From Methanothrix sp. (GTDB lineage: Archaea > Halobacteriota > Methanosarcinia > Methanotrichales > Methanotrichaceae), in NCBI RefSeq assembly GCF_024518575.1, contig NZ_JANIHG010000015.1, positions 1 through 36,200 on the forward strand: a DNA stretch of 36,200 nucleotides, given 5' to 3'. Within the stretch, counting starts at the first letter, position 1, and each line of letters opens with the position of its first letter. The notes below the pieces were generated by a model. That model saw only the letters and a list, made by a program, of their open reading frames with translations. It did not search any database and was not told the DNA's origin. The position numbers were made by a program, and so were the translations under genes. Below are positions 19,743 to 29,279 of the stretch, piece after piece.

Positions 19743-20501
19743 TCAGCTGCTCCTGTTGATCGCCATCCTGAATTCGTATGCGCTCGTCTCAGCTCTTCTG
19801 GCATTCATCTCAGCGGACTCTGCCATTGATCTCGCGATGCTCGCGTTCTCTGATGCATAAACCGCCATGAGTTTCGTCAGATTGTGGATAGAGAGGATCT
19901 CAGATCTCACGCTCTCGGTCTCGTTGAGCACCACTCTGCATTCGTGCGCGCTCGTCTCAGCTCTTCTGGCATTCATCTCAGCGGACTCTGCCATTGATCT
20001 CGCGATGCTCGCGTTCTCTGATGCATAAACCGCCATGAGTTTCGTCAGATTGTGGATAGAGAGGATCTCAGATCTCACGCTCTCGGTCTCGTTGAGCACC
20101 ACTCTGCATTCGTGCGCGCTCGTCTCAGCTCTTCTGGCATTCATCTCAGCGGACTCTGCCATTGATCTCGCGATGCTCGCGTTCTCTGATGCATAAACCG
20201 CCATGAGTTTCGTCAGATTGTGGATAGATAGGACTTCATCTCGTGCTCTCTTCGTCTCAGACAACAATGATTCCGCCTGATGGACCATCGCTCCAGGGCT
20301 CAGCGCCATCACCTGAGGGGACACAGGCGCTGCAAATCCCCTGATCCCGAAGGAGGGCACATAACCAGGAGACCTCGCCCCCACGTCGAGATTCACCACA
20401 TCCTCATTGGCGCCGCGACCGAGCCAGAGAGGCTCCTGGGCGTAAGAGACAGGGAGTAGCATCAGAAGCATTAGAACGACCAGGGACAGACGCGCATACA
20501 A
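19743..20501 (-). CDS. Secreted coiled-coil protein with 56-residue tandem repeats
   Basis: About 252 residues: a signal peptide (residues 1-22, ending SYAQ), a Pro/Gly-rich region (23-75), then three copies of a 56-residue unit starting SIHNLTKLMAVYASENASIA and ending NETESVRSEIL. In DNA the unit is 168 bases. Units begin near 19781, 19949 and 20117 on the plus strand and are almost identical at every base, including third positions. 56 is eight heptads and the unit is all-helix, so a continuous coiled coil is likely. Each unit has sequons NLT, NAS and NET. The last unit diverges and the chain ends without an anchor. Start: TTG 20501, with GAGGTGAT four bases before it; the GTG at 20510 lies inside that ribosome site. 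Confidence 0.75.
   Translation of the reverse strand: MYARLSLVVLMLLMLLPVSYAQEPLWLGRGANEDVVNLDVGARSPGYVPSFGIRGFAAPVSPQVMALSPGAMVHQAESLLSETKRARDEVLSIHNLTKLMAVYASENASIARSMAESAEMNARRAETSAHECRVVLNETESVRSEILSIHNLTKLMAVYASENASIARSMAESAEMNARRAETSAHECRVVLNETESVRSEILSIHNLTKLMAVYASENASIARSMAESAEMNARRAETSAYEFRMAINRSS
19781..20284 (-). repeat. 168-bp tandem repeat array, about three units
   Basis: CGCTCGTCTCAGCTCTTCTG begins at 19781, 19949 and 20117, an exact period of 168 bases. The two inner junctions look identical and the outer edges (near 19760 and 20235) diverge. It codes for the 56-residue repeats of the secreted protein. Confidence 0.8.
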
Positions 20502-20505
20502 ACAT

Positions 20506-20513
20506 ATCACCTC
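20506..20513 (-). promoter_or_regulatory. Ribosome site supporting TTG start
   Basis: GAGGTGAT on the minus strand, four bases before TTG 20501. Confidence 0.5.
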
Positions 20514-24200: not shown

Positions 24201-24890
24201 ATGGGGGCGGTTGGGACGGGACACATAGAGAAGATGCCCACGGGTATCCCGGGGCTGGACGAAATGCTGGAAGGGGGGATACCGGTACCTTCCAGCGTTC
24301 TTATCTCAGGGGAGACAGGCAGCGGAAAGACGACTCTCTGCATGCAGTACCTCTTCAAGGGAGCGGAGCTTGGTGAGCGCGGGATATACTTCATGGCGCT
24401 CAGCGAGCCTGCCGAGCTGATGCTGAGGTTCATCTCCACCTACGAGTTCGTGGATCACAGGCATTTCGGCACCCTGATAAGATACGTTGATCTGGGGGAG
24501 GTCATAGAGAGGGGTGATGAGGACGAGATCCTGGAGCTGATGGATCGCGAGGTCAGGAGCTTTCAGCCCAGAAGAATAGTCATAGACTCACTCCCCTTCC
24601 TCAAGACGGTGTTGAAGGATAACTACAGCAGATTTCTCTTCAGGCTGGGCGCCATGATGAAGAGCTGGAAGGGCGTGGTTCTGATAACAGCCGAGTCCAG
24701 ATCGAGCACTCCCTACCCACAGGATATCGCCTGCATAACAGATGGGGTGATAATACTCTACAACATGGAGATAGGCAGGACCAGGCGGCGATCCCTGGAG
24801 ATCCTCAAGATGATGGGTACATCTCACCGCGCTGGAAAGCATGCTCTTGATATATCGTCAAAGGGCATAACTGTTTACCCGGGACTGTAG
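24201..24890 (+). CDS. KaiC/RAD55-like RecA-fold ATPase
   Basis: A 229-residue single-domain ATPase. Typical KaiC opening PTGIPGLDEMLEGGIP (13-28), Walker A GETGSGKT (37-44), Walker B RRIVIDS (124-130, D129) and an ALSEPAE segment where KaiC has its catalytic Glu pair; only one Glu sits at the expected place. The C-terminal GVIILYNMEIGRTRRRSLEILKM matches the family's last strands. Such stand-alone KaiC-like proteins are common in archaeal signalling. It is the first gene of a tight operon: three bases separate its stop from the small membrane gene, which overlaps the SLC5-DUF835 gene. An ATPase that signals with that sensor is my inference. Confidence 0.82.
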   Translation: MGAVGTGHIEKMPTGIPGLDEMLEGGIPVPSSVLISGETGSGKTTLCMQYLFKGAELGERGIYFMALSEPAELMLRFISTYEFVDHRHFGTLIRYVDLGEVIERGDEDEILELMDREVRSFQPRRIVIDSLPFLKTVLKDNYSRFLFRLGAMMKSWKGVVLITAESRSSTPYPQDIACITDGVIILYNMEIGRTRRRSLEILKMMGTSHRAGKHALDISSKGITVYPGL

Positions 24891-24893
24891 GCC

Positions 24894-25106
24894 ATGACCA
24901 TATCGACGAAGGGACTCTTCGAGCAGATCGAGCTCTGGGTGCTTGCGTTTGTACTAGCTGTGGCTCTATTCAACTGGCCGATCCTCTCGATACCCAGCCC
25001 CACCGAGAAGATTTTCGGATTTCCAGAACGGCTCATCTATATATTTGTGGCCTGGATACTTGTGATACTCTGCGCATACATCTTCGACAGGAGGGGTGCG
25101 AGATGA
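24894..25106 (+). CDS. Small two-helix membrane protein, CbrX-like partner of the SLC5 sensor
   Basis: A 70-residue protein with a polar start (MTISTKGLFEQIE), helix 1 (LWVLAFVLAVALFNWP), a loop SIPSPTEKIFGFPE, helix 2 (RLIYIFVAWILVILCAYIF) and a basic tail DRRGAR. The layout, with a G-F/I-P loop and a (L/I)YIFVAW helix, resembles the small proteins encoded before SLC5-type sensor kinases such as CbrA (CbrX-type). That family likeness is from memory. Its stop overlaps the start of the next gene as ATGA (25103-25106), which implies translational coupling and probable pairing of the two products. Confidence 0.7.
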   Translation: MTISTKGLFEQIELWVLAFVLAVALFNWPILSIPSPTEKIFGFPERLIYIFVAWILVILCAYIFDRRGAR

Positions 25107-28100
25107 GCGCACCGATTTTTGCATTCGCCCTGCTGGTCTCATACCTCCTCCTGCTGAGCCTGGTGGCATACTATGCAGACAGGCAGAGGCAGGCCGGCAG
25201 GAGCATAGTCTCAAATCCATATGTCTATGCGTTATCCCTGGCGGTATACTGCACAGCATGGACATTCTATGGAAGCATCGGGAGAGCTGCGACAAGCGGG
25301 CTGGAGTTTCTCACGATATACATAGGCCCGACATTTTTGATGCTACTCGGATGGGTGATGATACGCAAGATCGTCCGCATATCAAAGGAGTACCGTCTCA
25401 CATCTGTCAGCGATTTCATAAGCTTCAGGTACGGCAGAAGCTACGCCATAGGAGCAATAGTGACTATTGTGAGCCTGATGGTCGTCATACCGTATGTCGC
25501 ACTCCAGCTCATAGCCATATCCAGCTCGATACAGATAATAAGCGGCGGAGAGACTTTCTGGGGCACAAAGCTTGTCGTGGCAGTCCTGCTCGGCATATTC
25601 GCAATAATCTTCGGAGCGCGACACCTCGATCCGATGGAAAGACACGAGGGGCTTGTAGCAGCGGTCGCATTTGAGTCCATAGTCAAGCTGACCGCGTTCG
25701 TCGCAGCGGGAGCATACATAACCTGGGGCATCTTCGGTGGTTACTCTGAGATAATAGATCGTGTGCTGTCCACGGAGGAGTTCGCCCATCTCATAACAAT
25801 AGAGTATACCTCCTGGTTCACCCTCACGCTGATATCTTTCTTCGCGGCGTTTCTTCTCCCGAGGCAGTTTCATGTCATGGTTGTCGAGAACTCTGATGAG
25901 TCTCACATAAGAAAGGCCATGTGGTTGTTTCCCCTGTATCTGCTTCTGATAAATCTCTTCGTTCCAGCGATAGCTGGAGCCGGCCTGATCCTGAATGTAC
26001 CCGGGGTCAAGGATATGTTCGTTATAGAGATCCCGTACTCAATGGGCAACATACCTCTCGCTGTGCTCGTCTTCATAGGAGGCGCATCTGCAGCCACTGC
26101 GATGGTGCTCGTCGACAGCGTCGCAGTTGGCCATATGATGCTGAATGAGCTCGAGCTGCCGCATCTCATGAGATACATAGGCAAGGGCAGGGGTCTCCCG
26201 GGTCTTCTGCTCAATGCCAAGCGCATCAACATACTTCTCGTGGTGATCCTCGGCTACCTCTACTCCAGGGCTGTCGAGTACCAGAGCCTGGTGGATATCG
26301 GCCTCATATCCTTCGTGGCTGCGAGCCAGATGGGTCCGGTTGTGATAGGTGGTCTGTACTGGAGGAAGGGCAGCAGGGAGGGTGCGATCGCAGGTATGAG
26401 CGCTGGCTTCGTGCTATGGGTGTACACAGCATTGATCCCGACAATGGTCAAGGCTGGCTGGCTATCGCGCTCGATTCTGGACGAAGGCCCATTCGGTATA
26501 CAAGCACTCAGACCGACGAACCTCTTTGGCGTGGATCTGGACCCATGGACGAACTCTGTCTTCTGGAGTCTTCTTATTAACGTGAGCCTTTATGTGCTAA
26601 TCTCTTTGATGAGCAGCCAGACGCCTGAGGAGAGGGTCGAGGCAGAGGGATTTGTCGAGATATTCAGCGAGAGGAGGGGTGCGATTCCGATCGAGCGGCC
26701 GGCAATAAGGTTGGGGACTGTTGATGAGGTCGAGTCGATGCTGGCCAGATACATCGGGGCGGAGAAGGCCAGGCTTCTGATAGACGCGGATCTTGCAAGG
26801 CTTGGCGTCTCCAGGGATAGGGTTGATGCCAGGCACCTCCTGGATCTCTGGGATCATGCGGAGAGGATCCTCACAGGCTCGCTGGGGACCTCCACAACAA
26901 GGATCATCGTTGAGGAGCAGACCATACCAAGGCCGGTGGTCGAGAGAAAGGGGGAGGTCCCGCCGAAGTTCAGGCTCGAGCCCGGCAGGATATATTTTTC
27001 GGCGGAGAGGGCATACGAGATCTTCACAGATCAGGTGACGCATGGCTTTGAGGGGCTCTGTGTTACACACAGACATCCAGATGAGGTCAGGAGCAGGTTC
27101 GGGCTCACAGAGACGCCGATTATATGGCTCAATCCCAAAAAGGAGGGGCGAGAGAAGCATATCTCCCCTGCGAACCTGCCGCTCTTATTTCTCACAATAA
27201 AGACGTTCGTCGAGTCCAGCAAAAACAGCGTGATACTTCTTGATAGTCTGGAGCATCTTGTGAGTGTAAATGAGAATGTCACACAGGAAGAGGATATGCT
27301 GGACTTTGTCAATCAGCTGGAGGGTCTCGTTCGCAGGACCGGCACGAGGCTGCTCCTGGCTGATTCCTCGGATTTCGTGGGCTTCTGCGGTGTATCCAAG
27401 ACGGAGCCGGTCGATGTGAAGGGGCTGATATTCACCGCAGGCCCGCTGCCATCCTATCTTCTCAGGGTGTTCATACTTGCCATAATTGCAAGCACAAGAT
27501 CTCCTGAAGCTGCCATGGATATCGCAAACTCGGTTCTCAGGGAGCAATCGGGCATCTCTGAGGAGACATCATGCGACCCTGACATGCGTGGCAGGGGTCT
27601 GATCGAGATCGATACCAGGTGCAAGATCACCAGGAGGCATTTCTTCACGATAATCAGGCGGATATCCGCGGGCGTGAGCAGGATCGATCCTGGCTTCGAT
27701 GCTGCAAAGGTCCTCAGACCCCTCATCGACAAGTTCGGCTTCAGCATATACGAGCTGGTCCTCAACCCGGGCACAACATATGCGATAGAGGAGGATAAGC
27801 CTGCTCGCTGCTTTGAGATATTCAGCGAGCTGATTCACGCAGGCCTAGATGGTTTGTCCATATCGAGGTACAACCCTGAGACCCTGCGCGAGAAGTACGG
27901 AATCTCGCCTGAGTGGGTCATATGGCTGACGCAGAAGACAGAGGAGGGCAAGTTCAGATCTGTGGATCCCACGAACTTCCCCAGGCTCAGCTCGATGATA
28001 TCGGATTTCCTGAGGAGAGCGGAGTATCCGGTGATACTCCTGGAGGGCATAGGCTATCTGATCACGCAGAGCAACTACGAGACCGTTCTCAGATTCATAC

Positions 28101-28222
28101 AGTCGCAGAGGGATGAGGTATCCCTGCGAGGAGCGGTGATGCTCGTGCATATAGATCCTCTCTCCCTGGACACTAAGGAGCTGCACAGGCTTGAGGGCGA
28201 GATGGAGCAGCTGAAGCTTTGA
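25103..28222 (+). CDS. SLC5 transporter-like sensor with STAC-like linker and two DUF835 domains
   Basis: A 1039-residue fusion. Residues 1-500: sodium:solute symporter (SLC5) membrane part of about 13 helices, with YCTAWTFYGSIGRAATSGLE, TSVSDFISFRYGRSYAIGAI and IPYVALQLIAISSSIQ, the forms seen in the CbrA type. Residues about 506-606: a soluble segment (PEERVEAEGFVEIF, then ARYIGAEKARLL, AERILTGSLGTSTTRII) like the STAC linker of SLC5-histidine kinases. Residues about 624-757 and 886-1039: two DUF835 domains, each with a G(L)SxxxxxP(E)xxR..(Y/F)G core, an IWL turn and a VILL(D/E) strand. No kinase, HAMP or phospho-acceptor region is present. It may take up or sense a small solute and pass the signal through DUF835; the ligand is unknown. 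Confidence 0.85.
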   Translation: MSAPIFAFALLVSYLLLLSLVAYYADRQRQAGRSIVSNPYVYALSLAVYCTAWTFYGSIGRAATSGLEFLTIYIGPTFLMLLGWVMIRKIVRISKEYRLTSVSDFISFRYGRSYAIGAIVTIVSLMVVIPYVALQLIAISSSIQIISGGETFWGTKLVVAVLLGIFAIIFGARHLDPMERHEGLVAAVAFESIVKLTAFVAAGAYITWGIFGGYSEIIDRVLSTEEFAHLITIEYTSWFTLTLISFFAAFLLPRQFHVMVVENSDESHIRKAMWLFPLYLLLINLFVPAIAGAGLILNVPGVKDMFVIEIPYSMGNIPLAVLVFIGGASAATAMVLVDSVAVGHMMLNELELPHLMRYIGKGRGLPGLLLNAKRINILLVVILGYLYSRAVEYQSLVDIGLISFVAASQMGPVVIGGLYWRKGSREGAIAGMSAGFVLWVYTALIPTMVKAGWLSRSILDEGPFGIQALRPTNLFGVDLDPWTNSVFWSLLINVSLYVLISLMSSQTPEERVEAEGFVEIFSERRGAIPIERPAIRLGTVDEVESMLARYIGAEKARLLIDADLARLGVSRDRVDARHLLDLWDHAERILTGSLGTSTTRIIVEEQTIPRPVVERKGEVPPKFRLEPGRIYFSAERAYEIFTDQVTHGFEGLCVTHRHPDEVRSRFGLTETPIIWLNPKKEGREKHISPANLPLLFLTIKTFVESSKNSVILLDSLEHLVSVNENVTQEEDMLDFVNQLEGLVRRTGTRLLLADSSDFVGFCGVSKTEPVDVKGLIFTAGPLPSYLLRVFILAIIASTRSPEAAMDIANSVLREQSGISEETSCDPDMRGRGLIEIDTRCKITRRHFFTIIRRISAGVSRIDPGFDAAKVLRPLIDKFGFSIYELVLNPGTTYAIEEDKPARCFEIFSELIHAGLDGLSISRYNPETLREKYGISPEWVIWLTQKTEEGKFRSVDPTNFPRLSSMISDFLRRAEYPVILLEGIGYLITQSNYETVLRFIQSQRDEVSLRGAVMLVHIDPLSLDTKELHRLEGEMEQLKL

Positions 28223-28617: not shown

Positions 28618-29279
28618 GTGAACCTGTCCGAATAACACTATCACCCCTCGCGAAGTTATAGTAAAAGATAAACATTTTATATAAGTTGTTCCAGCATTCT
28701 ATAGCTCTTGTCCATCTCAGGCTTCCGGTTTTATGCGTTTGAAGTTCACAGTTATTGAGCAGAAGAATATTTTTGCCCGTTGCTTGAACGAGGAGAATAC
28801 AGATTCCACGAGGCTTCGATCCCCAAATGATTCGTATCTGACTTTTACGAAGTCGGCAGAGTGCGTCTCTGTACCATGGACCCTCTTAGATGAATTATTT
28901 TATTTCTTTCAAGATCATTTGCAGCAAAAAAGTAACATTTCCTACCATTATATTTCAGAATAGTTTCGTCTACACCGAACCTCACTATGCCAAGCGACTT
29001 TACATTCTCGGGTTTATAATCAAGAGACTCCTTGAACCGTGTGATCCAGTAATGTACACTCGACTTGCCCACACCAAGAACTGACGCCGTCCTCCTCACA
29101 CTGGATGAGACCATATAATATCGCGAAAAGCTTGATTTCTAAAGGCACCTTATTCCTGCTGAAGAGGGGTATGCTGGATAACACAGAAATCAAAGATGTA
29201 GATGTCATCGCCTCTTTAAATTTCATTGAAGTAACCTTATACTCGGCTCTGGCTTTTATCTTATTCGGACAGGTCCCAC
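28618..29279 (-). mobile_element. Degenerate IS6-like insertion sequence with intact inverted ends
   Basis: The left end GTGAACCTGTCCGAATAA (28618-28635) matches, inverted, the right end TTATTCGGACAGGTCCCAC (29261-29279), apart from one base missing near the tip. The roughly 660 bases between hold one transposase reading frame on the minus strand broken by frameshifts. I see no target duplication. GC content here is far below the neighbouring genes. Confidence 0.75.
28727..29226 (-). pseudogene. IS6-like transposase, frameshifted
   Basis: Three minus-strand pieces in different frames join into one DDE transposase. Piece 1 (from 29226) ends in NKVPLEIKLFAILY. Piece 2 (from about 29114) carries a helix-turn-helix (TASVLGVGKSSVHYWITRF) and the first Asp in FGVDETILKYNGRKCYFFAA. 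After another shift near 28860, DRGPWYRDAL supplies the second Asp in one frame and YESFGDRSLVESVFSSFKQR, with the catalytic Glu, in another, ending at TGA near 28727. The order and motifs match archaeal IS6-like (ISC-type) transposases. With at least two frameshifts it cannot make an active enzyme. Confidence 0.75.

Follow-up and report, generated by a model that had tools for sequence, protein, structure and literature searches.

An SLC5-STAC-DUF835 fusion and a CbrX-like small protein form a conserved gene pair in Methanotrichaceae

The window, i.e., the whole 36,200-nucleotide stretch of Methanothrix sp. DNA analysed here, contains three genes encoding a KaiC-like ATPase, a small two-helix membrane protein and a fusion of an SLC5 transporter part, a STAC linker and two DUF835 domains (Table 1). 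These genes are tightly packed, as the first-pass annotation had described: 3 bases separate the ATPase gene from the small gene, which then overlaps the fusion gene by 4 bases. No receiver or kinase gene was present in the three-gene operon. Inspection by eye of part of the ORFs around the operon revealed no response regulator, a distant gene being possible, and no neighbour of response-regulator type was conserved across the related loci. Elsewhere in the window, a gene on the - strand (19743-20510) contained a tandem array (19768-20233) in which a 168-base unit occurs 2.8 times (98% alike), and its protein was made up of near-identical 56-residue repeats. A short ORF near a tRNA-Leu (28845-29114, - strand) looked by eye like a transposase remnant and gave weak helix-turn-helix matches in Pfam.

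Table 1 Features of the operon and the evidence used to assign them.
Feature	Position in window	Strand	Evidence
KaiC-like single-domain P-loop ATPase (229 aa)	24201..24890	+	PF06745, KaiC structure matches, family orthologs
Walker A motif GETGSGKT of ATPase	24309..24332	+	Alignment of 19 orthologs
Two-helix membrane protein, putative CbrX-like small subunit (70 aa)	24894..25106	+	Family conservation, bacterial profile match
ATGA overlap, small gene stop/fusion start	25103..25106	+	4-base overlap in 34/38 family loci
SLC5-STAC-DUF835-DUF835 fusion (1039 aa)	25103..28222	+	Pfam, phmmer
SLC5 transporter part (residues 1-505)	25103..26617	+	phmmer to 10ed_A; full-length model vs SLC5 structures
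Lys195, equivalent of CbrA Lys196 (Na2 site)	25685..25687	+	Alignment of archaeal and bacterial rows
STAC domain (about residues 538-607), four predicted helices	26714..26923	+	STAC profiles, model
First DUF835 domain (about residues 622-760)	26966..27382	+	PF05763, model
Second DUF835 domain (residues 884-1039)	27752..28219	+	PF05763, conservation

The SLC5 assignment of the fusion was borne out by a match to SSF in Pfam (PF00474, E 7e-7) and by phmmer, which aligned residues 11-604 in one stretch, through STAC, to the solved CbrA chain 10ed_A (E 3e-84). Confidence in the full-length model was low (pLDDT 72, pTM 0.45), and its use was hence limited to helices and fold class; it matched SLC5 structures and had four helices in the STAC region. 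The STAC match, chosen beforehand as the point on which the first-pass reading could fail, was found twice. A profile of 13 archaeal segments alone had CbrA residues 527-588 as its best PDB match (E 6e-4), and its comparison with a second profile, built from 14 bacterial STAC segments, gave 98.6% (E 1e-15). The archaeal Af1502 (5A1Q) was not picked up by HMMER. An LGPx(x)A motif has been described for STAC (PMC4834066), and an LGPxxA-like motif lies at residues 550-556 of the fusion, the motif being present in relaxed form (e.g., FIGPEKA, YIGAEKA).

In CbrA, which served as the residue guide for comparison, Lys196 occupies the sodium site (PMC13022988). This position was a lysine in 39/39 archaeal and 76/77 bacterial rows. 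The CbrA pocket residues Y51, W55, F71, Y75 and F406 were also kept in archaeal SLC5, F248 was replaced by serine and A56 mostly by threonine. Because a lysine takes up the sodium site, just as it does in CbrA, the SLC5 part is predicted from the alignment to handle a small solute, probably without sodium. Methanotrichaceae live on acetate and CrbS regulates acetate use. Acetate as the substrate was rejected as unsupported: the SLC5 part was slightly closer to CrbS-/RpuS-like plasmid-borne relatives (37-40% identity; typed by look, not against a reference sequence) than to CbrA (34%), its pocket matched that of the bacterial majority, and acetate uptake in Methanotrichaceae is assigned to a separate permease, AceP (PMC10598746).

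Both DUF835 domains of the first-pass annotation were recovered (PF05763 matched twice, E 4e-51 for the protein), and its statement that the kinase is missing stood for the window fusion, in which Pfam detected no HisKA or HATPase domain. Neither DUF835 domain of the window protein has a Walker A motif or P-loop, and DUF835 is listed as an inactivated KaiC, or iKaiC (PMC5847659). A weak FlaH match (NCBIfam), along with the predicted fold, pointed to a KaiC link. Modelled as a pair at fair confidence (pLDDT 85, pTM 0.83), the domains had double-domain KaiC as nearly all of their best PDB matches (E 6e-7, probability 1.00). Whole-chain TM-scores were low (0.22-0.26), probably due to a different placement of the two domains in the model. 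The pair gave no match to its own neighbour KaiC by hhalign and none in a PDB profile search. From the model, we predict for the DUF835 pair a fold resembling double-domain KaiC, minus the P-loop. The earlier proposal that DUF835 takes the kinase's place was correct with respect to position; its separation of DUF835 from the ATPase was not, as DUF835 appears to be a degenerate KaiC-like domain itself (model; PMC5847659).

The first gene matched KaiC in Pfam (PF06745, E 1e-41), its profile matched KaiC structures, and the Walker A motif was kept in all aligned rows that include that region. Of the catalytic glutamate pair, assessed by eye, one is present in the window ATPase (ALSEP) and none in several relatives (FGGP). 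As the pair is reduced or lost, ATP binding seems likelier than fast hydrolysis for these glutamate-poor ATPases.

The small protein gave nothing significant in Pfam and has no family there. CbrX has been described as conserved in Pseudomonas and Azotobacter (PMC6591292), and in the CbrA structure it is attached to the SLC5 part (PMC13022988). A hydrophobic small ORF was found just upstream of the SLC5-STAC gene at 75/79 bacterial loci, compared to 31/790 in a random-position control. The archaeal and bacterial small proteins have in common an N-(Y/F/W)-P ... G-x-P ... Y ... W pattern, and comparison of their profiles gave a match of 98% (E 1.6e-13). The match of the bacterial profile to the CbrX chain 10ed_X was weak (E 0.094). 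Judged by these profiles, the archaeal small protein and its counterparts from bacterial SLC5-STAC kinase loci are homologous, and the likeness to CbrX-CbrA originally noted holds. The protein also has the size (about 60-90 aa), the two helices and the position immediately upstream of the SLC5-STAC gene that define a small subunit of this kind. This suggests a CbrX-like small subunit for a large SLC5-STAC branch, beyond Pseudomonas and its kin. In Paracoccus, the overlap between the small gene and the SLC5-STAC kinase gene is also 4 bases.

The fusion was found in 50/50 Methanotrichaceae genomes, full length in 45 and in pieces on small contigs in 5; that of Methanothrix sp. SKW87 was 90% identical to the window fusion. 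In a sample of 393 genomes from the phylum, the SLC5-STAC part had no match at E 1e-20 in the 379 others. The small gene preceded the fusion in 38/38 family loci having upstream sequence, with an overlap of exactly 4 bases in 34 (starts were picked among ATG, GTG and TTG, favouring one that yielded the 4-base overlap where present), which rules out a chance arrangement. An ortholog of the operon KaiC gene was present in 29/50 genomes, directly upstream of the small gene and fusion in the loci examined, and absent in 21/50. Mapped on the tree, its presence changed state at least five times, most simply through losses. With about five such losses, the core unit is the small gene plus the fusion and the KaiC gene is accessory. 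The survey upheld only part of the conserved three-gene order expected by the first-pass annotation, and the KaiC-like ATPase, although correctly identified, is not a constant member of the unit. The DUF835 domains were equally conserved in genomes without the operon KaiC, showing no relaxation.

In the tree, a single branch (SH-aLRT 94) separated the archaeal rows from the remaining ones; as CbrA is a very long outgroup, the direction of transfer is read from the distribution rather than from the tree. Most simply, the ancestor of the family would have acquired the gene once from bacteria and DUF835 would have taken the place of the kinase, a history that the tree allows but does not prove. 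No description of an SLC5-STAC-DUF835 fusion was found in the literature searched (Korycinski 2015 and Makarova 2017 were outside its reach). Each of the parts is known, and their joining is unusual, real and conserved.

CbrA/CbrX of Pseudomonas (SLC5-STAC-PAS-histidine kinase) resembles the archaeal pair in SLC5-STAC from end to end, in the Na2-site lysine and in having an overlapping gene for a small two-helix protein immediately upstream, whereas the archaeal fusion has no PAS, DHp or CA and ends in DUF835. Closest in sequence (about 42-47% in SLC5-STAC) were PAS-less bacterial SLC5-STAC-histidine kinases of about 910 aa, found in Desulfobacterota, Chloroflexota, Bacteroidota, Paracoccus and others. 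These share the pocket residues and the small upstream gene but, unlike the archaeal fusion, have a kinase tail and often a nearby receiver gene. CrbS/MxtR and RpuS, which are acetate and pyruvate sensors, follow the same SLC5-STAC sensor plan. The upstream small ORF was absent from 4/4 plasmid-borne relatives checked (hybrid-kinase or RpuS-like type), the CrbS-like ones being hybrid kinases. Around the bacterial loci (L035-L113, L144, L145), tblastn with Paracoccus neighbours as queries detected a receiver in 64/79, an exonuclease-like gene in 45/79 and a DUF294-type nucleotidyltransferase in 35/79. On the archaeal side, the Methanosarcinaceae iKaiC proteins (REC-PAS-DUF835, PAS-DUF835) have DUF835 and an adjacent KaiC-like ATPase gene in common with the fusion; their input is a receiver/PAS with one DUF835, in contrast to a transporter with two.

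Across 16 genomes of the phylum, a KaiC gene lay within 3 kb of 14/17 DUF835 genes over the Pfam cut-off, the 14 cases representing few orthologous loci, all in Methanosarcinaceae, rather than independent events. A second locus, found in 13 Methanotrichaceae genomes, places one DUF835 gene near a KaiC gene, in the order REC, PAS-kinase, DUF835, PadR, KaiC where read. Such neighbourhoods favour a general partnership between DUF835 and KaiC-like ATPases, and the repeated loss of the operon KaiC means that the partner need not be the neighbouring ATPase. The second locus, comprising a receiver, PAS-histidine kinase, single DUF835, PadR regulator and KaiC-like ATPase, was seen in L150 (2365-7735), where gas vesicle genes (GvpA-type, GvpK) follow, and in L151-L154 and L160. 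In the window's own genome (L155), ~8 kb separates its DUF835 part from its KaiC part, and the two are on opposite strands. In another family of the phylum (G141, L169 1891-3824), two KaiC-like stretches directly follow a DUF835 gene.

Our best reading, with a probability of about 0.5, is a kinase-free, CbrA-like SLC5-STAC transceptor that signals via inactive KaiC-like domains to KaiC-family ATPases. The alignment of SLC5-STAC to CbrA, the conserved pocket, the small subunit, the DUF835 fold, the DUF835-KaiC neighbourhoods and the conservation of the second DUF835 domain all led to it. The SLC5 part would bind, and perhaps carry, a small solute, probably without sodium, and the small two-helix protein, produced through translational coupling, would be its subunit in the membrane. 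The conformational state of the transporter would be relayed through the STAC bundle to the two P-loop-less KaiC-like DUF835 domains, which may act as a scaffold controlling KaiC-family ATPases: the adjacent one where present or, in genomes lacking it, others in trans. The domains, the order of the genes and their conservation, the homology of the small protein and the lysine were observed directly in the sequences, whereas complex formation, the direction of signalling, the partner and the substrate are what we infer within this scheme. The neighbouring KaiC as obligate output was rejected after its repeated gene loss, which together with the missing catalytic glutamates means that it cannot be the sole output. 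Its absence from 21/50 genomes in which DUF835 is unrelaxed likewise argues against an obligate partner and counts against the best reading, as do the glutamate loss, the null hhalign result and the low TM-scores. The more specific proposal is of a kinase-free transceptor class, fixed in Methanotrichaceae, whose inactive KaiC-like domains read carrier occupancy and hand it on to KaiC-type ATPases, directly linking a nutrient sensor in the membrane to the archaeal KaiC network; it is tentative and somewhat doubtful.

The signal could also run in reverse, in a protein that is mainly a transporter gated by its KaiC-like domains according to cell energy or nucleotide state. In CbrA, the docking place of STAC is the cytosolic cleft of the transporter part (PMC13022988), the SLC5 residues of the pocket and ion site show the conservation expected of a functional carrier, and the accessory ATPase was lost without loss of the transporter. 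However, sensor kinases are the nearest relatives, Methanotrichaceae have a separate acetate permease (PMC10598746) and there are SLC5 transporters lacking STAC for bulk uptake, and we consider such a reversal unlikely. A carrier whose tail is an inert relic would fit the missing P-loops, yet it is very improbable given that invariant columns make up 35% of the second DUF835 domain across the family versus 26% of the transporter part, and was already disfavoured. Alternatively, DUF835 may bind receiver or kinase proteins encoded elsewhere, so that the fusion would act in trans on a conventional two-component network, leaving phosphotransfer one step removed. Methanosarcinaceae have fusions of DUF835 with REC and PAS (PMC5847659), and the single DUF835 gene of Methanotrichaceae lies beside REC and PAS-kinase genes; these loci also have a KaiC gene, however, and the receiver may act upstream of DUF835 instead of being its target. 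The operon itself has no receiver or kinase gene, which makes this quite improbable. The original claim of signalling without phosphotransfer fits the operon but stays provisional, given these associations of DUF835 elsewhere.

Methanotrichaceae are major acetate-using methane producers, and the exchange of a kinase for DUF835, together with its fixation across the family, would surprise specialists. Under the best reading, the fusion points to a nutrient sensor of bacterial origin that was redirected to serve archaeal signalling. As STAC is retained at the junction between the bacterial sensor module and an output of archaeal type, the fusion also provides a natural test of how STAC relays transporter state. 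An archaeal KaiC network has been proposed as a signalling hub (as cited in PMC5847659). If the best reading is true, the fusion would give this network a nutrient input at the membrane.
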